From a virus: DNA of 41,779 nucleotides. Numbering within the stretch: the first letter of the stretch is position 1; each line of letters starts with the position of its first letter. The notes beneath the pieces were generated by a model, which searched no databases, was not told the origin of the DNA, and saw only the letters and a program-made list of their open reading frames with translations. Below are positions 987 through 39,589 of this stretch, piece after piece. The stretch spans positions 1-41,779 of IMG/VR virus record IMGVR_UViG_3300021356_000045, one strand, 5' to 3'. The translations under genes were made by a program, and so were the position numbers.

Positions 987-3900
987 TTAATTTAGAGTTA
1001 CTGTTCCTCCTTGGCCAATAATATGCCAAGCTGTACCGTGAGAAACAATTTCAATAAACGCATATTGTGAGCCTAAAGTTACTGTTTCAGATCCATCAAT
1101 TGTTTGTGCACCATTTGCATCAATTGTAGTACCGTTTGTAAAAGCTGCTGTTTGTTTAATAACATATCTTGCACCTGCTGTTGCAGCTGATGGTAGAGCA
1201 ATTGTTTGATTGTCAGCATTAACAAGGTAAATGTAGTGATCACCTAAAGTTACTGCTCCTCCTGCAGTAATTTTTTGTGTAAACAACTTACCTTTCATAA
1301 CGGTATTTCCATCAATTGTTGCGTTACCGTCTACAGTTAGATTTGATTCAGCTGTAAGATTTCCACCTACAGTCATGGTGCTGTCACAAGAAACAGCACC
1401 AGCGGCTGTTACGCTAAACGTATCAGTTTCTGTACCATCTTGAACTGATAGTGTTGCATTACGAATAACTGTGTTTGAAGTAAATAAGCCGCCAGTAACA
1501 GCAATGTCGCCGCCAACATATAAGTCGTCAGCGACGCCTAAACCACCAGCAACCTTAAGTGCACCAGTTGTAGATGATGTAGAAACTGTTGTTGAAGAAA
1601 TAGCAATATCGCCTGCTGAGTTAATAGTAATTGCATCGGTATCTGAAGCAGATCCAATTGTTGCACTATCTGGAATAACAATGCCCCCTTCAGATAGAGT
1701 AAGAACACCAGTCGAAGAAAGACTCATTTTTTCTAATGCAGCTCCTGATGCAGCTCCTGATCCAGATGTCTTAAATGAAAGCTTAGTTGCATTTGAATCG
1801 GAAGCAAAATCGCCTTCGGATATAGCTGAAATTGCAGCTGCTACTTCTCTTGAGCTTGTTCCAGTTCCTTCATCAGGTGCTTGGAACTCAATAGATCCTA
1901 AAACATCATTTAAAGCAATATCTGTATCACCTGTTTGAAGTGTAAGAACTGCTCCACCTGCATCTGTTGTATTGAGATTCTTTAAAGCAAGACCTGCGTC
2001 TCTAACATGTGAAAGAGTAATGTCAGCAGCAGAAACGTTGTCTTGGAATCTAACTGCTCCTGCATCTGCTAAGTATAGATCAGCAAAACTCTTTGCAGCT
2101 GTACCTAAAGTCAAGCCATCATTTGCTTCAGGATATAGTTCTGTTGCATTTAAATGGAGCTCGTCTGAACCTCCTACTTCAAAAGAAATAACATCGTCAG
2201 CAGAAGCTCTAATTGATGTATCAGCATCAGCGTCTAAATCAATTCTACCTTGACCATTTAAGTCAATATCATCAACGTAAAGTTTACGCCATGCTGTACC
2301 AACTTCACCAAGATCATCAGCACTATCTGCACCTGGCAAAACAGCACTTGTTGCATCAAGAACAATATTTCCGCCTGAAGTCACTGTTAAATTGGTGCCA
2401 TCAGACTCAATCTTTTCTGCATCGTCTGTAGAGAAAACAAGACCTATATTTTCTGGAATGTTAATGTCACCACCCACACCAACGCTAAAAGAAATATCTG
2501 TGCCATCTGATTCAATCTTTTCGTGGCCTGTTGCACCATCAAGAACTAGACCGACATTTACAGGAATGTGTACGTCAGATGTTGCAGTAAGATTTAGTTT
2601 GCCACTTGAAGCAATTGTAAGATCTGTTCCATCACCTTCAATCTTTTCACCATCGTCACCAAATGTCATACCAACATTTGCAGGCACATTAACATCTGAT
2701 GAAGCTGTAAGATTAATGTCACCACCTGAATTTATTGTGAGATCAGTATCATTAGATTCGATCTTTTCTGCTGCGTCTGCTGTAGAAAAAACTAATCCAA
2801 CGTTAGCAGGAATATGAACATCAGATGTTGCAGTAAGATTCAACTTATTGCTTGAAGCAATTGTAAGATCTGTTCCATCACCTTCAATCTTTTCACCATC
2901 ATCACCAAATGTCACACCAACGCCTGAAGGTATGTTGACATCTGATGAAGCTGTAAGATTAATATCACCACCTGAATTTATTGTGAGATCAGTACCGTCA
3001 GACTCGATCTTTTCTGCATCATCTGTAGAGAAAACAAGTCCTATATTATTAGCTAATTGCAAGTCAGATCCATCAAATGTAAAGCTAGCGCTGCCTTCAA
3101 GGGCACCACCTACACCAGCCAAAACAACTTGATCATTTGTTAAACCAGAGTTAGTAAAAGAAGAAGCTTCAAGTGAACCAACTTTTAAACCAGCATAACT
3201 ATCAATTGTAACATTACCCGAAGTAGTTGCATCTTCTGTTGCAGACGCAACAAAAGCAAACTGATCTGCAGATTCATCCCACAAGAGCACTTGATTTGCT
3301 CTGTCTGCAACACCGCCAGCGCTTCTAGAAAATACAATACCTTGATCTCTTACAGGTGCATTTGTATCACCTTTATTAAGCTTTATAAGAGGGTCTGCAA
3401 CTGTCATTGTTGTTGAGTCGACTGTTGTTGTTGTACCGCTAACAGTTAGATTGCCTGCAACTGTTAAGTTACCGCTAGTTTTTACTAGAGTTTCTGTTAA
3501 AGTGAGTTCACCTGCTGTCTCAGAGTCAATTATTGCGCCGTTAGAAAGTGTTACCCTTCCACCCTGTACCTCAATGTCGCCAGCAAATATAACATCACGA
3601 TCAGCTGAATTAAGTGTCATGTTAGGCGTTGTTCCTAAAGAACTTCCTAAACCTATTTGTAGCTTATCTTCTGAATCATCCAAACCAATATGGAAATCAA
3701 CAGCATTACCATCAAAAATAATAGATGCATCCTCAGCACCTGCATCTCCAATTGTTAAAGTCGGAGTTGTTCCTGTAATATTGACATCTTGTGCAATATC
3801 AACAGAATCAGCGTCAACAGAAACTACAACTTCACCTTGTACAGAAAGATCTATTCCACCGGCAGCATCTGATGCATTAATAACAACTGCATTTGCAGCT

Positions 3901-6568: not shown

Positions 6569-9500
6569 TTAAGGAGTATTTTCGTTTGCTCCTGTAAACT
6601 TAGTATCACCAGCATCATCACCGCTACCTACAACTAAGAAATGTCTATCAGAAGCGCCTGTAGCAGTTGCACCGTAGAAGATAAGATCAGAACCACCTTG
6701 TGCATGTAATTGTCCTAAGTCAAAAGCAAAAGGTCCAAAGTGTGATCTAACAAGAGGTGACGAATCAAATACGACATCGTATATGTCACTTCCGTTCTCT
6801 TGAATAGGATCATTATTTCCATCAAGTCTTTGTGAAGTTAAGAATACACCACCAAATCGACCAAGCTGACTATCTACATAAGCTTTAATCGCTTTAGCTG
6901 ATGCTAAAGTTGTATCAGTTTCAGCTACTGCAGAAAGATCTGTATCTAAAACTCCTGCTTTAAGATTGTCAACTTCAAGATTTGAAACTGTATTGTTGTC
7001 TGCGTCAATTGATTTATTTGTTAAAGTATCAGTTGTTGCACGCCCAACAAGAGTATCAGTTGCATCTGGAAGCGTAAGTACTCGATCATCAGTAGGGTCT
7101 GTAACAGATAGCGTTGTTTCAAAGTCGTTTGAAGTTGCGCCTTCAAATACGATAGATGAGTCACTTAATGACAAACCTGAAACAATTGGAGATGTCAGCG
7201 TTTTATTAGTCAAGGTTTGTTCAGCAGTCAATTGTACAATATCAGATCCTACATTAACTGTGATTGTTTGTCCCGCGTGAGTTACTCCAACTTTATTAGC
7301 TGTACCTTGAATAGTCAAAGTTTCGCTGTCTAAATCTACTGTTCCTCCTGCCCCAGTATCAGTTGCAAAGTCTAAATCTTGAGCAGTTATTTGCGCATCT
7401 ACATATGTCTTAACAGCTTTTGCTGTTGTTAACGTATCATGATTTTGTGAAACTGCTGTTAGGTCTGTGTCAACAGATGTTATTGCTGTTGAATTATTTA
7501 TTGTTAAACTTGTATTTGCAGTTAAAGCTGTAAATGTACCAGCAGCTGCTGAAGTGCCACCAATTACAGAATTATTTACTGTACCTCCGCTTATTGTCAA
7601 GTCGTTTGCAACGTAAGCGTCAACTATAACTTCTCCTTGCCATGTACCAGAAGTAATTGTACCAACTGTTGCAAGCGAGCTTAAAGATGTTAAAGATGTA
7701 TTATCACTTAAGAAAGTAACCAAGTTTGCAAGTGTTGCTTTTTTATTACCTGCGTTATTACCTTCACCTGCAGCAACATCACTAACTAAAAGTAAATCGG
7801 AAGCTGTTAATGGTTCGTTTGTTGCAGTTCCACCACCAAAATTTAAAGCATTTAGTGAAACTTTATTATCTGTGTTAATTACATTAAGCTTGTCATTTGA
7901 AATACTACCAGCAAGCATTGCATTTGTTATACCTAGAGCTCTTACGTTTAAAGAATTATTAGCAAACTCTATCGAAGAGCCATCAACTTCTGCAGTTTGA
8001 ATATAATCTTGCGCAAGTTTATCATCTGCTATAGATCCTTCTAGCATTGCGTTTGTAACAGCTAGGTTTCCAATTGTAGCATCTCCACCTGCTGCAATAG
8101 TTATATCTCCTGAAACATTTCCAAATATTGAATCTTCAAGATTACTTAAAGTCATAGATTTAATTGTAGTAACATTTGTATCGTATATAAATAACTTATC
8201 ATCTTGAGCAAAGTTTGTTAAAACAGCGCTTTCTGATGTCCAGTCTAGTTTATCTAAGTCTATTGCTGCATTTGCTGCGATTGATGCATTAACAACTGCG
8301 TCATCTGCAAGTTGATCAGCTCCAACAGCATCAGCTACCAGCATAGAGCTCTCTACAGAACCGTCTGCGATTGTCAAATCTACGTTATTAACTGCAGCAG
8401 AACCGTCAATATCAAAACTTCCTGTTACGTCACCATTGGCAAATGTAACTGTTACAGCATCTGACCAGCTTGCTGCTGTTGTTGCAGTAGTCGCGCTTGT
8501 TGCATTACCATCTAAAGCGCCTGAAAATGTTGTAGAAGTTAGTTCACCTGTACTTGGGTTATATGTTAGCCCTACATCAGTTTCAATTCCTTGCTCGCCA
8601 GTTGCGCCGTCAACAAAAGTCAAATAAACAGTCTCGTTTGTATTGTTGTTTGCAGACGCTGTAATATTTGTTGCAGTAGTTGCAGTATCAGCATTACCAG
8701 TTAAATCACCTCTAATTTTACCTGCATTACTGTAAATAACAGCTTTTTCGTTTACTACTGTATCTGCTGCTGAACCGTCTAATAGATTTAATTCTGCAGG
8801 AGTTGATGTTACTGCAGTATTCTTTTCATTATCTGTTGCATCTGACCTTAAAACTAAAATGCTACCATTTTGATCAGGTAAAGTAATTGATCGATCATCT
8901 GTAGGATCGATAACTGAAAGAACTGTTTCAAATTCATCTGGAGTTGCACCTTCAAAAGTAAATGAATTTTGAACATTAATAGTTGTTGAGTCAACAGTTG
9001 TTGTAGTTCCTTTAACAGTTAAATTACCTCTAATCACGACGCTTGTGTCATTATCAGCATCACCAATATTTAATGTATCAGTACCATCAAACGATGCTAA
9101 TCTAGTTGAAAGGTTTGCTTTTGAAACATCTTCATCAGTATTAGTAGTAAATGTTAAATTGTCTTGCATATAAGTTTGCAAATCGGAAGCTGTTATCTTC
9201 TTTAAATCTCCAACATTATCACTTGTATCGCTTACAAGTAACTGGTCACCTGAAGCCAAAGATTCTCCTTGCGCAAAATCATTTTGGCCAGTTATAATAG
9301 ACTTGTTTATTGATAAGTCTATTGCACCATCACCAGCATCGTCATATGCTGCTGTTATACCCGAGTGTGAACCATTAGTCACTAATTGACCAGCACTTAC
9401 ATCTTGAACGGCTTCAGTAAAGTCTGTAATTTGAGTTGAGACTATTGAAACAGAAGATGTTGACGTAGCAGTTACTTGACCTTGTTTATTAAGTGTTAAA

Positions 9501-30060: not shown

Positions 30061-30939
30061 ATGTCTGTTTTGTTAGATGAAAATACTGTTGAAGCTCACA
30101 TTGCAATAGTACTAACAGATATTATCGGCAGTACAAAATTTGTTCAAAAAAACGGTGCAAGAATAGCAGCAAAATGGTTTGGAGCTCATGACAAAGCAGT
30201 TATGAACTATATTGCAAGACATAACGGTCAATTAATAGATGCATCTGACGGGCATTTAATGATGTTCGGAACAGTTTCAGACGCAATTGCATTTGCATTT
30301 GAATATAAGAAATATCTTCGACAAAAAAAATTTCCTTTTAGAAGCCGTGTAGGAATACACTGGGATAAAATGCTAATTGTAAAATCAGAAGCGCACATGG
30401 TTCGTGCAGGTGGTAAAAGAATAAATTTAGAAGGAATTGGAAAAAACATAGCAGCAAGAACAATGTCAATTTGTGGTGCTGAACAAATTTTATTATCTTA
30501 TTCAGCTTATATGCAGTTTAAAAAATTTGGTCACAGAAATAGATATATTCCTAAAAAAGCTCTATCAGCTCTAGTAGGTTTATATCAATTTAAAGGAGTT
30601 TCAGAACCAGAAGCAATATATGCAATTGGGCTAATACAAGAACAATTACAACCACCTCCAGATGGTGAAAAAGCTAAAAGAATAGGTGGCGCTAAAAAAA
30701 TAAAAACTAGATTGAGAGATAAAAAGATTAAAGAATTGTTTTTCTGGTTTGCTTATAGATTAATATTTGTTGCATTTTGTATGTTTTTATGGGTTTTGAT
30801 ACAAATGTCAAACAGGTTTCATTCTAATAACATCATTTATAACGCAACAGGTTTAGATTTAAACTATTATCTCGGATGGATTATACCTTTTTTCGAAAAT
30901 ATATATGAATTATTAATAAGAATAATAAAGGCTTTTTAA
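30061..30939 (+). CDS. Class III nucleotidyl cyclase with C-terminal membrane helices
   Basis: 292 residues. The N-terminal catalytic domain shows class III order: VLTDIIGSTKF with metal ligand D20, SDGHLMMF with second metal ligand D63, RVGIHWD (96-102), and KNIAARTMS with transition-state residues N129 and R133, then AEQILLSY. By manual alignment, the base-selecting Lys and Asp/Thr of adenylate cyclases are replaced by Ile59 and Asn122, so the nucleotide made (cAMP, cGMP or a cyclic pyrimidine) cannot be assigned. A basic linker leads to a membrane helix (FWFAYRLIFVAFCMFLWVLI) and a second hydrophobic segment near the C-terminus. It is followed 1 nt later by a membrane/coiled-coil protein. 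A phage-encoded cyclase is unusual. Confidence 0.8.
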   Translation: MSVLLDENTVEAHIAIVLTDIIGSTKFVQKNGARIAAKWFGAHDKAVMNYIARHNGQLIDASDGHLMMFGTVSDAIAFAFEYKKYLRQKKFPFRSRVGIHWDKMLIVKSEAHMVRAGGKRINLEGIGKNIAARTMSICGAEQILLSYSAYMQFKKFGHRNRYIPKKALSALVGLYQFKGVSEPEAIYAIGLIQEQLQPPPDGEKAKRIGGAKKIKTRLRDKKIKELFFWFAYRLIFVAFCMFLWVLIQMSNRFHSNNIIYNATGLDLNYYLGWIIPFFENIYELLIRIIKAF

Positions 30940-33920: not shown

Positions 33921-34793
33921 CTACTCAAATAAGCTTTTGTTAAATTCAACTATTGGACTCCATCGTTTTTTATATTGTTCTGTCTTTTCATTCTTTTTAT
34001 ATTCGACTCCTCCACAACTTTTAAATATTTTTAAAGCTTCACTTGCATATTTATTACCCTTCTCAGATTCTTTTTCCAATTGTTGTGTTAGTTTTTCACT
34101 CAGTTTTTTAACATCATCAATTGATTTAGCACCCTTAACAGCATTACTCCAATTGTTTATTTTGTTAGCTACGCTAAGTTTAGGATTACCTGTTTTAAGT
34201 TCAATTACTTTTTTAAAAAATTTCGGGTATTTTAATTTTATATTTTTAAGTTTTTCTTTTGAATATTTGCTAAAACTCTTACCATAAATATCCCATACAC
34301 CTCTCATTTCTCCAGAAACAACTTTATCACCACTCGCTCTTTCTTGATTCATATCAGCAACACCATCAGCTACGTGATCTACAAGTGTATCTATGATTTT
34401 CTCCGAATCAGCATCTGAAAGTTTATAATTCGGATCATTTTTTTTTGCTTGTTTTTCCAATTCTTTAACTGCAAGAACATTCCTGACATCATTATTTATA
34501 TCTTCTATAGTATTGCCTTTATAAATATCGGTACTAGCACCAGGCTTAGAAATACCTGATAATGTTGGATTTTCGCCTACACTTTTTAGTATTAATTCTG
34601 TAGTTTTCTCAGGCGACGGTATTGCATTGCCTATTTTAGGTAAAACAGCATTAGTTAATACTGCAACAAGTCCTAAAACTGCTATTGTATTTTTTAAATT
34701 TTCTTCTAAAAGCTCTGGATCACTATCATATAATCCTTCATCTAAAACTTTACGCCAGTTTTCAACTAATAACTTCGTTTCGTTTCTATTCAT
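33921..34793 (-). CDS. Predicted packaged head protein, leader type 2, 290 aa
   Basis: The leader MNRNETKLLVENWRKVLDEG closely matches that of the kinase gene at 35912 (MNRKEYNLLVEGWRTYLKEE). Both carry L-x-E at residues 17-19, the cleavage motif of T4-type prohead protease. The remaining cargo has a hydrophobic segment (NTIAVLGLVAVLTNAVL, about 31-48) and then helical, Lys-rich sequence with no known fold (KLSDADSEKIIDTLVDHVAD). It is probably delivered in the capsid and perhaps injected. AAGG lies 7 nt before the ATG. Its 3' end is convergent with the outer-membrane protein gene. Confidence 0.62.
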   Translation of the reverse strand: MNRNETKLLVENWRKVLDEGLYDSDPELLEENLKNTIAVLGLVAVLTNAVLPKIGNAIPSPEKTTELILKSVGENPTLSGISKPGASTDIYKGNTIEDINNDVRNVLAVKELEKQAKKNDPNYKLSDADSEKIIDTLVDHVADGVADMNQERASGDKVVSGEMRGVWDIYGKSFSKYSKEKLKNIKLKYPKFFKKVIELKTGNPKLSVANKINNWSNAVKGAKSIDDVKKLSEKLTQQLEKESEKGNKYASEALKIFKSCGGVEYKKNEKTEQYKKRWSPIVEFNKSLFE

Positions 34794-34813: not shown

Positions 34814-35053
34814 TTAATTATCTTCTATGTGTTTAAATATTTCTTCACAACTGTTTATTTTTTTGATCTCTTCTAAAGAAATATCACCACAACTTCTTAT
34901 ATATCCTAAAGCACCTCTATGAATGCCCAAACAGTCAGTTACAATATCTTTTATTTGCTCACATTCTGTTTTAGGCAACTCTACTTTCTTTTCTGAGCAT
35001 GATATTGTCGATGCTAAGAAAAACGTAAAACATAACATTACTTTTTTAAACAT
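34814..35053 (-). CDS. Small lipoprotein, possible outer spanin
   Basis: 79 residues. A lipoprotein signal sequence (MFKKVMLCFTFFLASTIS) ends at a lipobox-like cysteine, residue 19. The mature part has four further cysteines (TECEQIKDIVTDCLG, RSCGD, NSCEE), which may form disulfides in the periplasm. Small phage lipoproteins of this size often act as outer spanins in lysis. The neighbouring 218-residue membrane/coiled-coil protein could be the partner. No spanin family is recognised, so this is a suggestion only. It lies between leader-bearing head genes and is followed by the 290-residue gene. Confidence 0.65.
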   Translation of the reverse strand: MFKKVMLCFTFFLASTISCSEKKVELPKTECEQIKDIVTDCLGIHRGALGYIRSCGDISLEEIKKINSCEEIFKHIEDN

Positions 35054-35911: not shown

Positions 35912-36634
35912 CTATTTTTTACTTCTAAAATGCCCAATAGCATTTTTACTAACAGGTACATCAATAATTTCATCAAATTCTCCTTCTAACGGTCCTTGAT
36001 AACTTGAAGTCATTCTGTCATAAGCTGCGTCAGGAATTGTTTTAGACGTTCCTTCTTCTTTATATTTTTTACTTCTTTCTCTAGCAATCGATTTTAAATC
36101 TTCTAAGTATGAAACATCATCTTCTTCCCAGTGAAAAACAACGCCTACAGTTTTATATTCTGAAAGATTTAATTGATCTTTTATTCTATTTCTACTAGCT
36201 TCATTCATATTAGTCATGTCAATTACAACATCACAACCTGAAGATTTTGCGTTTTTTATCTTTCTTTCATGATTATCTAAAACTTCCAGTTCAGCATTAT
36301 TTACTTTTTCCCAAGCTTTTGGAACCCATTTTTTCCAAGTTATTTGCTGGTCAATAATTTTTCCAAACTTAGGGTGAACTACATCATTTTTTATATCTTC
36401 CTCAGAAGGCGATAAAAACATATCATCATAAGTTAGTCCATATTTCCTAGCAACACTTTCAGTTTCACTATCTAAACTTATTATATAAACATCGTCTAAG
36501 TTATTTTCAACCCAATAACTTTTACCTATTGCAGGAGGCCCAATAAGAAAATACAATTTGTTTTCTTTGCCTGCTTCTTCTTTTAAATAAGTTCTCCAAC
36601 CTTCAACTAATAAATTATATTCTTTACGATTCAT
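35912..36634 (-). CDS. Predicted packaged polynucleotide-kinase-like protein
   Basis: 240 residues from the ATG at 36634. Residues 1-20 (MNRKEYNLLVEGWRTYLKEE) match the leader of the gene at 33921 and end in L17-K-E19, a prohead protease motif. The rest is a P-loop kinase: Walker A GPPAIGKS (32-39), Walker B-like VVIDMTNMN (about 135-143), and an Arg-rich lid (RERSKKYKEEG, about 180-190), then IPDAAYDRMTSSY and FDEIIDV. The order resembles the 5'-kinase domain of T4 polynucleotide kinase. No phosphatase domain follows. A capsid-delivered kinase could act on nicked tRNA or DNA at the first moments of infection; that role is inferred. Confidence 0.68.
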   Translation of the reverse strand: MNRKEYNLLVEGWRTYLKEEAGKENKLYFLIGPPAIGKSYWVENNLDDVYIISLDSETESVARKYGLTYDDMFLSPSEEDIKNDVVHPKFGKIIDQQITWKKWVPKAWEKVNNAELEVLDNHERKIKNAKSSGCDVVIDMTNMNEASRNRIKDQLNLSEYKTVGVVFHWEEDDVSYLEDLKSIARERSKKYKEEGTSKTIPDAAYDRMTSSYQGPLEGEFDEIIDVPVSKNAIGHFRSKK

Positions 36635-36673: not shown

Positions 36674-37213
36674 TTAAACACTATAATCATGATCGTCATA
36701 AGATACTGAACTAAGTCCTACATCACTTAGCGCAGATTTAACAGCATGTTGTGGATATCCAAAAGTTTTTAAAACATTTACAAATGATTGCTTAAATGAA
36801 TTATCTGAAAAATATTTTCTATATATTTTAATAATACTTTGAACATCTTCTATACTATTATTGTATATTTCACTTTCAGCTTTTTCTATTCCTTTTGTAT
36901 GCGCAACGTCCTCAAATTCAACAATCCAAGAACCATCCGCTTCCATGTAACCAAGCTGCTCAGCTATATAATCACCTTCAAGTTTTTCTTCAAAATTTCT
37001 GCCATTTATATCTTTGTATTTCATCACAGCATTCAAAAAGTCAGGATTTGCTTCTAACTTTGCGAGCAAACCCTCATCCAGAAAACCGACTAAAAAATCT
37101 ATCAGATCGTCATGAGTAACATTATACTCGCCTATTTCATACATAGAATTTGAAGCACTTTCTAAAATCACGCTTCTTATAATTCTTCTTAATCTACTCT
37201 CTGTTATTTTCAT
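36674..37213 (-). CDS. Predicted packaged head protein, leader type 1, 179 aa
   Basis: The leader MKITESRLRRIIRSVILES is nearly identical to that of the genes at 37346 and 38168. It is amphipathic and basic and ends in I16-L-E18, fitting T4-type prohead protease cleavage before Ser19. The cargo is acidic and helical (DDLIDFLVGFLDEGLLAKL, IYRKYFSDNSF) with no recognised fold. A TATAAATA box lies 28 nt upstream of the start, and the conserved 30-bp element lies 75 nt upstream. It is predicted to be packed in the head during assembly and ejected with DNA. Confidence 0.65.
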   Translation of the reverse strand: MKITESRLRRIIRSVILESASNSMYEIGEYNVTHDDLIDFLVGFLDEGLLAKLEANPDFLNAVMKYKDINGRNFEEKLEGDYIAEQLGYMEADGSWIVEFEDVAHTKGIEKAESEIYNNSIEDVQSIIKIYRKYFSDNSFKQSFVNVLKTFGYPQHAVKSALSDVGLSSVSYDDHDYSV

Positions 37214-37240
37214 TTTAAATCCTCATTAATCTTTTCTTTT

Positions 37241-37248
37241 TATTTATA
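37241..37248 (-). promoter_or_regulatory. T4-type late promoter box (TATAAATA)
   Basis: The transcribed strand has an exact TATAAATA 28 nt before the start of the 179-residue leader-bearing gene. This is the T4 late promoter core, and late expression fits a head protein. Confidence 0.6.
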
Positions 37249-37287
37249 TATTCAATTAAATCTCAAAACAATGTTAAACGTATATAA

Positions 37288-37317
37288 ACGTCGTGACTCA
37301 AGAGACGCCCAGCTCGA
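37288..37317 (-). repeat. Conserved intergenic element, copy A
   Basis: One of three copies of a 30-31-bp element with core GTGACTC, then AGA and the shared CCCAGCTCGA. This copy lies 28 nt past the stop of the gene at 37346 and upstream of the 179-residue gene. It differs from copies B and C by one deleted base, which leaves a CGTC/GACG pairing across the core. Function unknown. Confidence 0.7.
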
Positions 37318-37345
37318 TCAAAAAATAAAAGCAGTCTCAGCCACT

Positions 37346-37966
37346 TTATAAATATTTATCACTTAATGGACTTTCCGGATCTTCTGATCTACGAATATCA
37401 TCAGACACACCAGTGTCAGACTCAGAGCCGGCAAGAGCCGTAAAACTAACGCCAAATAAACCAAGTATAGTTTTTCCACCAATAACACTCATTATCTTTA
37501 AACCTACTGCTGTTGGAATTAATCCCGGAAGTGCACACATGAAAGTTATAAGTACCATTAACCCTGCTCCAAGAGCCCCAACCCCGCCTAAAATTCCTAT
37601 GACTTCATTGATTTTTTTGGCTTTAAGATTCCCCTTCGCAGCTCTAATCTCTGCTGCTTGACTTCTTACTTTTTCTTTATCTTCTTCACTTAAACTTTCA
37701 TATTGAGCGTCAAGATCAATGTTTTTCTTTTCAAGATCTTTTAAATACTCACTCCAATTTTTATATTTAAAAAAAGATTCTTTGATTAATCTTTTTCTTC
37801 TAAAATTACTCTCATTCACTGTTAAAATTTCAGGATCAAAACCGTTTTTCTCTAGCGCATCTAAAAAATCACCAAACACACTAGGATCTTCTAAGTCTCC
37901 CATACCATCAGATTCTAATATAACTTGACGAATAATACTTCTTAACTTGCTCTCAGTTATTCTCAT
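37346..37966 (-). CDS. Predicted packaged membrane protein, leader type 1, 206 aa
   Basis: The leader MRITESKLRSIIRQVILES ends in I-L-E at 16-18, a likely prohead protease site. The middle is charged and coiled-coil-like (YKNWSEYLKDLEKKNIDLDA). Residues about 122-177 form two or three Gly-rich membrane helices (VIGILGGVGALGAGLMVLIT and KTILGLFGVSFTALAG). The tail is acidic. A membrane protein inside a phage head is surprising. After ejection it could insert into the host inner membrane, for example to aid DNA entry or block a second phage. No family is recognised. AAGG lies about 8 nt before the ATG. Confidence 0.63.
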   Translation of the reverse strand: MRITESKLRSIIRQVILESDGMGDLEDPSVFGDFLDALEKNGFDPEILTVNESNFRRKRLIKESFFKYKNWSEYLKDLEKKNIDLDAQYESLSEEDKEKVRSQAAEIRAAKGNLKAKKINEVIGILGGVGALGAGLMVLITFMCALPGLIPTAVGLKIMSVIGGKTILGLFGVSFTALAGSESDTGVSDDIRRSEDPESPLSDKYL

Positions 37967-37998
37967 TTAAAAACCTTTTTTAATAAAATTATATAAAT

Positions 37999-38007
37999 CT
38001 ATTTATT
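37999..38007 (-). promoter_or_regulatory. Late-promoter-like box of cassette copy 1
   Basis: The transcribed strand reads AATAAATAGATTTATATAAT, a seven-of-eight match to TATAAATA followed by the TTATATAA shared with sister copies. It lies 33 nt before the start codon of the 206-residue gene. Confidence 0.5.
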
Positions 38008-38111
38008 AAAGATTAATCAATTATCAAAAAGTTTTTCAAAATTTCTCCCGAAAATTTTTTGTCAAAAAGCATAAATTACTTTTGCAAATAAGTGCCGCAA
38101 ACTTTCATATT

Positions 38112-38142
38112 ACGTCTGTGACTCTAAAGACACCCAGCTCGA
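38112..38142 (-). repeat. Conserved intergenic element, copy B
   Basis: The + strand has ACGTCTGTGACTC, TAAAGACA and CCCAGCTCGA, the same 31-bp layout as copy C. It lies 25 nt past the stop of the 128-residue gene and at the outer end of cassette copy 1. GTGACT and AGACAC can pair around a 4-base loop with one mismatch. Confidence 0.75.
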
Positions 38143-38167
38143 GTCAATAATTTTTTAATAACAACAC

Positions 38168-38554
38168 TTATCTTAAATTTGATGTCAAATGACCATCATG
38201 TACTAATACACCAGTACAGTCAGTTTTAAAATTATCACTACCTACAATCGCAGGTGTAGACCTTATCGTTTGTTTAAGTTTTTCGGCTTGAGATTCACTA
38301 AGCTTTTCAATATATAAATATACAGTAGTACCTTGTAAAGCTATTAAATTCTCTTCTCCATTTCCAAAATCACACATTATAACAGCATGGTCGGTACCTG
38401 GCCTGTATACACATTCTTTACCTACTATATTCTTTAACATTTTTAAAGTCTCTGAATCACGCATCCACATATCAACATATGTACTTCGCATACCATATGA
38501 TTCAGCTAACACACTTCTTATAATTCTTCTTAATCTACTCTCAGTTATTCTCAT
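38168..38554 (-). CDS. Predicted packaged head protein, leader type 1, 128 aa
   Basis: The leader MRITESRLRRIIRSVLAES ends in L16-A-E18, fitting prohead protease cleavage before Ser19. The cargo is a small alpha/beta domain with three cysteines (GKECVYRPGTDHAVIMCDFG, DCTGVLVHDGH) and beta strands NLIALQGTTVYLYIE. It is not recognised. The gene is preceded by cassette copy 2 with its late-promoter-like box 36 nt upstream of the start and AAAGG 8-9 nt before the ATG. Predicted to be packaged and ejected with the DNA. Confidence 0.65.
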   Translation of the reverse strand: MRITESRLRRIIRSVLAESYGMRSTYVDMWMRDSETLKMLKNIVGKECVYRPGTDHAVIMCDFGNGEENLIALQGTTVYLYIEKLSESQAEKLKQTIRSTPAIVGSDNFKTDCTGVLVHDGHLTSNLR

Positions 38555-38589
38555 TTATAAAACCTTTCTTTTAAAAACATTATATAAAA

Positions 38590-38598
38590 CTATTTATT
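38590..38598 (-). promoter_or_regulatory. Late-promoter-like box of cassette copy 2
   Basis: The transcribed strand reads AATAAATAGTTTTATATAAT, 36 nt before the 128-residue gene. Same layout as the box at 37999. Confidence 0.5.
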
Positions 38599-38701
38599 CT
38601 AGATTAATCGATTATTAAAAAGTTTTCCAAATTTTCTCCCGAAATTTTTTGCTAAAAAAATCAAAATGCTTCTTTCAAGAAATGCCGCAAACTCTTATAT
38701 T

Positions 38702-38732
38702 ACGTCTGTGACTCAAGAGACACCCAGCTCGA
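38702..38732 (-). repeat. Conserved intergenic element, copy C
   Basis: The + strand has ACGTCTGTGACTC, AAGAGACA and CCCAGCTCGA. It begins 13 nt past the stop codon of the gene remnant at 38746, the same arrangement as copies A and B behind intact genes. Confidence 0.75.
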
Positions 38733-38745
38733 TCAAAAATTTTAT

Positions 38746-38811
38746 TTAAAGACCTTCTGGTCTTACTTTCTCGTATTCAACCCAATTACCCGGTTTATTA
38801 TATAACTCTAT
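38746..38811 (-). pseudogene. 3' end of a lost cassette gene
   Basis: A leftward frame reads YNKPGNWVEYEKVRPEGL and then a stop. The text looks like a real protein C-terminus, but it has no start codon or ribosome site. It begins directly after TTATATAAT, where intact cassettes continue into leader and start codon. Copy C follows the stop, as in intact units. An internal deletion that removed the start and body of a cassette gene explains this. The peptide is short, so coincidence cannot be excluded. Confidence 0.45.
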
Positions 38812-38868
38812 TTATAACTGAAATGGTAAAAGTTTTCGGAAAATTCTCCGGAAGTTTTTTGCGGAAAA
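38785..38868 (-). repeat. Third, partial copy of the promoter-leader region
   Basis: The + strand shows ATTATATAAC, CTATTTATA, AAAAGTTTTC, then ATTCTCCGGAAGTTTTTTGC, in the same order as cassettes 1 and 2. The GTTTGCGGCA part of those copies is reduced to a TTTTTTGCGG match. This copy is more diverged. Confidence 0.6.
38809..38816 (-). promoter_or_regulatory. T4-type late promoter box (TATAAATA) of the partial copy
   Basis: An exact TATAAATA on the transcribed strand, followed by GAGTTATATAAT as in the other cassettes. It now drives only the gene remnant and the leftward cassette array. Confidence 0.5.
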
Positions 38869-38879
38869 ACGATGTATTC

Positions 38880-38901
38880 AGATGTGTGCTTTCCCACATC
38901 T
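38880..38901. other. Hairpin with competing partner
   Basis: AGATGTG, 8 bases, CACATCT forms a perfect 7-bp stem. The right half can instead pair in CCACA-TCTTGG-TGTGG (38894-38909). The two structures exclude each other. No gene follows closely on either strand, so a function cannot be assigned. Confidence 0.45.
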
Positions 38902-39070: not shown

Positions 39071-39099
39071 GTGTAACTCTGAAATATATGAAGTATAAT
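39071..39099 (+). promoter_or_regulatory. Early promoter 1
   Basis: GTGTAA (39071), a spacer of exactly 17 bp, then TATAAT (39094-39099), followed by AAACATAAGGAGG. First of seven complete copies. The layout is that of a strong sigma-70 promoter with a -35 variant reminiscent of T4 early promoters (GTTTAC). Confidence 0.85.
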
Positions 39100-39150
39100 A
39101 AAACATAAGGAGGGATAGGAACGGTGGTTCCTAAGGACGATGAGGAAGGG

Positions 39151-39258
39151 ATGGCAACCGACCTCGGGATTCCGACTCCAATCTTTGAAATTCAGGTAAC
39201 TCAGGTCGACAAGATGGATCCTTTACGCGAGGAACATGATGTGAGACAGGTCGGCTGA
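39151..39258 (+). CDS. Small acidic early protein, 35 aa
   Basis: The frame reads MATDLGIPTPIFEIQVTQVD, then KMDPLREEHDVRQVG. It starts at ATG 39151 with GAGG 5 nt upstream. A GTG at 39124 would add 9 residues and lies nearer the AGGAGG of promoter 1 (39108-39113). A competing 19-codon frame from ATG 39139 overlaps it. The protein-like composition and its own promoter support a real gene. It is too short for domain recognition. Many early phage proteins of this size bind and redirect host enzymes, but nothing specific can be said here. Confidence 0.55.
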   Translation: MATDLGIPTPIFEIQVTQVDKMDPLREEHDVRQVG

Positions 39259-39272
39259 AAAGGACGTAATAC

Positions 39273-39301
39273 GTGTAAAACTTAATTCCTTAATCTATAA
39301 T
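39273..39301 (+). promoter_or_regulatory. Early promoter 2
   Basis: GTGTAA (39273), 17 bp, TATAAT (39296-39301). The spacer end TTCCTTAATC is shared with early promoter 5, pointing to duplication. AAGGAGG follows. Confidence 0.85.
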
Positions 39302-39325
39302 AGAGATATAAGGAGGAGAACAAAT

Positions 39326-39394
39326 ATGGAATATATACCGATGATATTGGCGGCCGGAATGCTTTATGTAGCTTGGCAAATCTTAACTAGTTAA
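39326..39394 (+). CDS. Single-helix membrane microprotein, 22 aa
   Basis: The frame reads MEYIPMILAAGMLYVAWQIL, then TS. It is almost entirely one membrane-spanning helix. A strong AAGGAGG and its own promoter precede it, and its stop is directly followed by the next promoter. Such microproteins often act on host membrane enzymes or transporters; the target is unknown. Confidence 0.65.
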   Translation: MEYIPMILAAGMLYVAWQILTS

Positions 39395-39423
39395 GTGTAA
39401 CTTTCATTTAATCAGTTTATAAT
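39395..39423 (+). promoter_or_regulatory. Early promoter 3
   Basis: GTGTAA begins at the base after the preceding stop codon. A 17-bp spacer and TATAAT (39418-39423) follow, then AAGGAGG. Confidence 0.85.
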
Positions 39424-39443
39424 ATACTATAAGGAGGAAAAAG

Positions 39444-39503
39444 ATGACTTTGATCTATATGTTATTGTTGTTGTACATCATAACTCATGCTAATAAGAAG
39501 TAA
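39444..39503 (+). CDS. Single-helix membrane microprotein, 19 aa
   Basis: The frame reads MTLIYMLLLLYIITHANKK, a hydrophobic helix of about 14 residues with a basic end. AAGGAGG lies about 8 nt before the ATG and early promoter 3 is upstream. The hydrophobic stretch is short for a full membrane span, so it may sit at the membrane surface or pair with the 22-residue peptide. Function unknown. Confidence 0.6.
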   Translation: MTLIYMLLLLYIITHANKK

Positions 39504-39521
39504 ATAAACTTAACCCGATTC

Positions 39522-39550
39522 GTGTAACTTAAAACTATTAATCCTATAAT
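39522..39550 (+). promoter_or_regulatory. Early promoter 4
   Basis: GTGTAA (39522), 17 bp, TATAAT (39545-39550), followed by AAAACATAA. It drives the 202-residue gene. Confidence 0.85.
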
Positions 39551-39589
39551 AAAACATAATTCATTCAATCAATAAAAAGGAGTTTCAAT

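Follow-up and report, generated by a model that had tools for sequence, protein, structure and literature searches.

The array and its genes

The window, the whole viral record of 41,779 bases analysed here, is a fragment without head genes. It contains three genes that begin with the same 19-residue leader, M[K/R]ITES..LR.IIR.V[I/L].ES (type 1), and continue into different proteins, here called cargo (Table 1). Two further genes carry a second leader, MNR.E..LLVE.W...L.E (type 2). The window's presumed tail-fibre genes are encoded on the strand that carries the array. Each type-1 leader ends in (I/L)-x-E, as the initial annotation had stated; the ends are ILE/S, ILE/S and LAE/S, the slash marking the predicted cut here and below.

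A small Cys-containing lipoprotein-like gene (34814-35053, minus strand) adjoins the array and is conserved at 50-72% in four relatives. On the opposite strand, nt 39071-39580 (+) hold repeated early-type promoter units, GTGTAA...TATAAT...AAGGAGG, ahead of very short ORFs.

Table 1. Features of the cassette array and of the neighbouring type-2 leader genes
Feature	Position	Strand	Description
Further type-2 leader gene	33921..34793	-	MNRNETKLLVENWRKVLDE/G; cargo without assigned function
Second-leader-type gene	35912..36634	-	MNRKEYNLLVEGWRTYLKE/E; P-loop kinase-like cargo (Pfam AAA_33, E=5e-8)
Cassette gene 1	36674..37213	-	179 aa; type-1 leader MKITESRLRRIIRSVILE/S; cargo without known domain
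Gene 1 leader, 19 codons	37157..37213	-	Leader sequence MKITESRLRRIIRSVILES
Gene 1 upstream region	37214-37345	-	Shorter cassette subtype
Gene 1 box	37241..37248	-	T4-late-promoter-like TATAAATA, 35 nt ahead of ATG
24-nt conserved element, copy 1	37293..37316	-	
Cassette gene 2	37346..37966	-	206 aa; type-1 leader MRITESKLRSIIRQVILE/S; cargo with hydrophobic segment, no known domain
Gene 2 leader	37910..37966	-	Leader sequence MRITESKLRSIIRQVILES
Gene 2 promoter cassette	37967..38150	-	Long type; 24-nt element 38118-38141, AACTTTTT block, AATAAATA box 38000-38007
Cassette gene 3	38168..38554	-	128 aa; type-1 leader MRITESRLRRIIRSVLAE/S
Gene 3 leader	38498..38554	-	Leader sequence MRITESRLRRIIRSVLAES
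Gene 3 promoter cassette	38555..38740	-	Long type; 24-nt element 38708-38731, AATAAATA box 38591-38598
Short hairpin AAGACCAGAAGGTCTT	38749-38764		After the orphan half-cassette on the minus strand
Orphan promoter half-cassette	38785..38900	-	TATAAATA at 38809-38816; no leader, no cargo

Repeated 5′ units and promoter boxes

The regions upstream of gene 2 (37967-38167) and gene 3 (38555-38740) are identical at 155 of 183 positions (85%), with an alignment score of 114.5 against a shuffle maximum of 17, confirming the initial annotation, which had called them near copies. The similarity continues in the leader DNA, where 41 of 57 nt are shared by genes 2 and 3 and 46 of 57 by genes 1 and 3 (72-81%). 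Over successive codon windows the identity of genes 2 and 3 falls from 0.87 through 0.57, 0.50, 0.37 and 0.33 to 0.23, and their cargoes are similar at chance level (score 4.0, null mean 5.4). The boundary that had been placed at codon 19 therefore holds in that the cargo is unrelated, but a little similarity reaches slightly beyond that codon.

Cassettes had been described for two upstream regions together with a partial third copy. Those of genes 2 and 3 stand; gene 1 has one as well, of the shorter subtype, with 82 of 110 aligned positions identical to gene 3 (score 27, null maximum 12) and with the same 24-nt element. Thus all three genes are cassette genes. The element, CGAGCTGGGYGTCTYTWGAGTCAC, is found at nt 37293, 38118 and 38708, a recurrence that had not been singled out earlier. 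In the partial third copy (38785-38868), the stretch as far as the TATAAATA box matches gene 3 (score 56, null maximum 37), so the promoter half is upheld. Downstream of the box no leader match was found, 20-100% of shuffles scoring equally, and what had been taken for a partial cassette is an orphan promoter copy. A decayed leader was rejected on the same lack of significant similarity downstream of the box. The intergenic unit was also considered as a structured RNA or terminator, and this was rejected with no Rfam match and fold z-scores of -0.63 to 0.19.

We set the leader classes and null windows after viewing the sequences, so the p-values in this report are contrasts rather than pre-planned tests; read in this way, NATAAATA lies within 70 nt of 9 of 22 type-1 genes and 22 of 223 others (p=4e-4), and NATAAATAG lies upstream of 8 of 22 and 3 of 223, respectively (p=1.6e-7). 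Two of the three non-type-1 genes with NATAAATAG are large presumed tail-fibre genes. The boxes of the cassettes resemble late-type, rather than early, promoters. A sigma gene (PF04542) was found in only three of eight larger records.

Exchange of cargo and leader among relatives

Five relatives (G029, G030, G031, G032 and G033) were found through the 24-nt element. All keep the neighbourhood of the array, with the small lipoprotein, a class III cyclase-like gene, a helicase, a PhoH-like gene and others, and many of these flanking genes are 60-90% identical. Between the conserved flanks the content of the array is different in each of the five.

Homologous cargoes stand behind different leaders. 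G029 7052-7327 has a type-1 leader and G031 3443-3661 a type-3 leader (MKLLESYVFEVLKE), and their cargoes are 78% identical over 64 aa, with the identity beginning at the leader boundary. In five relatives a family of 260-aa cargoes stands behind a type-2 leader, and a related cargo of G029 (2501-3304) has the type-3 leader MSLLKRYIKESLLLE. Ahead of a 104-aa cargo, G029 and G030 have the long cassette subtype and G033 has the short one, so recombination also occurs between the 5′ unit and the leader-cargo unit. The alignment of related genomes, which had been named earlier as a check on cargo replacement behind a constant 5′ region, thus gives constant flanks, changing arrays and homologous cargo with different leaders. 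Promoter, leader and cargo form a modular system in the array, and its parts are exchangeable.

Not all cargoes are swapped; that of gene 3 has distant kin (25-27%) in a 229-aa cargo of G029, G030 and G033, with the same leader type. The 206-aa cargo of gene 2 has no relatives in viral contigs. The 260-aa type-2 cargo (L157:4881-5660 and homologues) contains a conserved GFGPLLYEIGLEII motif.

The product of the cyclase-like gene of the window (30061-30939, +) resembles class III nucleotidyl cyclases (PDB 5d0g, E=8e-7) and has a hydrophobic stretch at its C-terminal end. Its match to TIGR04510 has E=3e-32, yet lies below the family cut-off. The protein is 64-79% identical between the window and all five relatives. 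A cyclase in a phage is unusual.

Spread of the leader and nature of the cargoes

In viral contigs, 72 stretches matched a codon-degenerate pattern for M[K/R]ITE..LR.IIR and none matched a scrambled-codon control, a rough comparison in which the control pattern had one degenerate base fewer. The leader pattern had three matches in a set of 84,980 genomes of bacteria and archaea, each in a metagenome-assembled genome, and a second variant, MKITK.QL..II[K/R]E, gave at least 120. The wider search for the leader that had been called for earlier thus shows it to be widespread in viral contigs. Among the matches listed there are 383 distinct full-length leader proteins, whose cargoes make up 301 clusters (256 singletons). 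The information content of the leader is at least 1.4 bits at each of residues 1-16 and 0.2-0.3 bits from residue 23, and its conservation gives out at residues 16-22. As many as 13 leader genes occur at a single locus. L262, L303 and L250, with 9-13 each, are far denser than the window.

Pfam and PHROGs recognised almost nothing in the cargoes; 89 leader proteins scanned gave one convincing Pfam domain (PAP2, 2.6e-9) and one PHROG match. The structure model of gene 3 was unusable as a functional guide (pLDDT 43). The low-confidence model of the 260-aa type-2 cargo (pLDDT 54) bears no more than a weak likeness to acetyltransferases, with GNAT enzymes as the best structural matches, though non-significant ones (best E=0.16). 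A module, GRYHDWRNDESLTPKQKI, recurs among different phages, in leader proteins and in other ORFs (L049/L125 4564-5565, L205, L227, L242 and L303).

Among named cultured phages, those closest in gp23 are Flavobacterium phage immuto, Microcystis phage Mel-JY01 and Rhodothermus phage RM378; the leader was found in none of the three (145 of 160 kb of immuto covered). Short tblastn queries with the leader, a search that is insensitive for short peptides, matched no named isolate. A survey of the open-access literature found no paper describing this leader.

The 5′ unit might be a recombination or regulatory repeat in which the leader is conserved merely by lying inside, or the genes might be fast-diverging paralogues from a single family. 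The 24-nt element and the AT-rich block are repeated at the DNA level across leader types and at one non-leader gene: the element also lies ahead of a lipoprotein gene (L151), so the 5′ unit is not restricted to leader genes. T4-type phages, moreover, shuffle genes via mobile promoter cassettes, as reported by Arbiol et al. 2010 (cited in PMC4177764). Yet searches with codon-degenerate patterns show the leader kept as protein in hundreds of phage proteins, and the DNA element is missing from the larger leader-bearing records that were tested. Its conservation stops at the protease motif, and the occurrence of different leader types on homologous cargo points to a function of the leader. We regard a passively conserved leader, or mere paralogy, as quite improbable.

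Probable head packaging and the predicted protease site

An [I/L]-x-E motif ends at residues 16-23 in 74 of 102 leader proteins and in 15 of 98 in the stretch that follows (p=7e-17), so that about a quarter of the leader proteins are without it at the expected place. The leader ends seen are IKE/S, ILE/S, LAE/S and ISE/N. In ten leader-bearing relatives, gp23 has an LRE, LKE or IKE site at residue 59-60, the next residue being S, A or V; the site is at residue 85 in G028, which has a longer predicted start, and G030 gp23 carries LRE/N. The part of gp23 that aligns to the mature protein starts shortly after this site, which is the predicted maturation site. G030, a close relative of the window, encodes a gp21 homologue (E=2.7e-17 to PDB 5jbl) and carries both this gp21 (S77) protease and a gp23 with the L/I-x-E site.

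Two small conserved proteins encoded downstream of gp21 have leader-like starts: protein A, in 9 of 13 records, M[AG].[TS]...LK.IVKECLVEILAEG, and protein B, in 10 of 13, KLT...L..II.EE...L.E. The leader profile matches protein A with E=0.001 and protein B with E=0.00036, none of 100 column shuffles being as good in either case; it does not match gp23 or gp21. For type-2 leaders, none of gp23, gp21 and protein A gives a significant match, and protein B gives a marginal one (2 of 60 shuffles). The resemblance of LVEGW to LVEKW raised a copy of the gp23 propeptide as the origin of the type-2 leader, which was rejected, 13 of 60 shuffles being as good by profile comparison. Four leader genes adjoin gp23 in G026, and the surroundings of gp21 hold five in G027 and six in G020.

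The presence of an S77 protease was rejected as proof of packaging. It was found in 23 of 30 leader-bearing records of at least 95 kb and 5 of 10 random records (p=0.12), and at 150 kb or more in 14 of 14 leader-bearing contigs and 3 of 4 random ones. Since random large contigs also carry S77, its presence is not discriminating. The capsid-targeting role proposed for the leader in the initial annotation is supported by the same motif in gp23 and by the leader-like N-termini of genes near the protease. Judged from these sequence features, packaging into the head and cutting by a gp21-type protease are likely.

Could the leader target the prohead core while the cargoes serve as parts of the core or in head assembly, like T4 gp67 and gp68, and are consumed in maturation rather than injected? 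The leader-like starts of proteins A and B, both of the head operon, would agree with this, as would the leader genes that adjoin gp21 or gp23. However, the array of G030 (2.8-5.7 kb) is away from the head operon (81-91 kb), and the cargo set, in its 301 clusters, differs in each relative, unlike core genes. Kinase-like and PAP2-like cargoes also exist. A role as core components is unlikely for the cargoes.

Another sorting signal, such as a membrane-binding amphipathic helix, a degron or a host RNA polymerase docking helix, would suit a leader that is short and basic, with a helix modelled at residues 4-19 in a low-confidence model. It would leave unexplained both the [I/L]-x-E end in common with gp23 and the leader-like N-termini of the conserved genes beside gp21, and we hold it to be most improbable.

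Proposed mechanism and significance

Quite probably, the phage is a T4-related marine one and the locus an array of cassettes whose cargo is packaged into the capsid. Each of them comprises the 24-nt spacer element, the AT-rich block, the late-type box NATAAATAG, a ribosome site and the codons of the leader of about 19 residues, a promoter-plus-tag unit of about 190 bases placed ahead of unrelated proteins. The leader is predicted to bind the prohead core during head assembly, bringing the attached protein inside. A gp21-type prohead protease would then cut after the [I/L]-x-E at the leader end and free the cargo, which may be injected along with the DNA. Since both the 5′ DNA and the leader come close to being repeats, the cargo behind them can be exchanged by homologous recombination. 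Injection and an effector role of the cargoes would go one step beyond core binding and cleavage, a step that is helped by the example of T4 Ip1-3.

We lean towards the view that large uncultured T4-related phages of the sea rely on one common leader, plus at least two further interchangeable types, to bring hundreds of unrelated and mostly unknown proteins into the head. The injected proteins of large marine phages are hard to study because they are unrelated and without known domains. If the proposal is true, the leader turns unknown small phage proteins into predicted head-packaged cargo, amounting to several hundred families. With a leader shared by conserved head-operon genes, a single motif would read out the injected-protein repertoire from metagenomes. 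The predicted leader ends give directly testable N-termini, and the leaders would be naturally occurring signals with which proteins could be targeted to phage heads and loaded there. The array bears on what large marine phages inject and how that set keeps renewing.

Comparison with known systems

SPN3US/phiKZ-type phages have unrelated ejected head proteins, the propeptides of which are removed by the prohead protease (PMC5694885, PMC10052503). Removal of the leader is predicted here in the same way, a likeness in described features; SPN3US and phiKZ are giant phages outside the group considered here.

The PeSL unit is reportedly an early promoter paired with a stem-loop. Like PeSL, the cassettes are repeated promoter-bearing intergenic units that permit gene shuffling. 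Unlike PeSL, they have a late-type box and an RNA fold no better than chance, and the repeat extends into the coding sequence. Gene shuffling in T4-type phages via such mobile regulatory or promoter cassettes is described in PMC4177764 (citing Arbiol et al. 2010).

In T4, gp21 cuts after L/I-X-E, and internal proteins have propeptides of 10-19 residues that target the prohead core (PMC9026906). The leader is the sole common part of T4 Ip1-3, which are type IV restriction inhibitors (PMC12373910). The array resembles T4 IPI, IPII, IPIII and Alt in the short N-terminal leader on unrelated mature proteins, the L/I-x-E site and the variable locus, and related phages, like T4, encode a gp21 protease. 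It differs from T4 in its three interchangeable leader types, its far larger cargo repertoire and its late-type NATAAATA boxes, which are absent upstream of T4 ipI, ipII and ipIII. The type-1 leader (MRITESRLRRIIRSVLAES) has about 19 residues against 10 for the T4 CTS, MKTYQEFIAE(A), and inspection reveals no visible similarity between the two, so that for this leader the original description as analogous to the T4 signal, yet unrelated in sequence, holds. By this analogy, the array may well work as the CTS system of T4 does.
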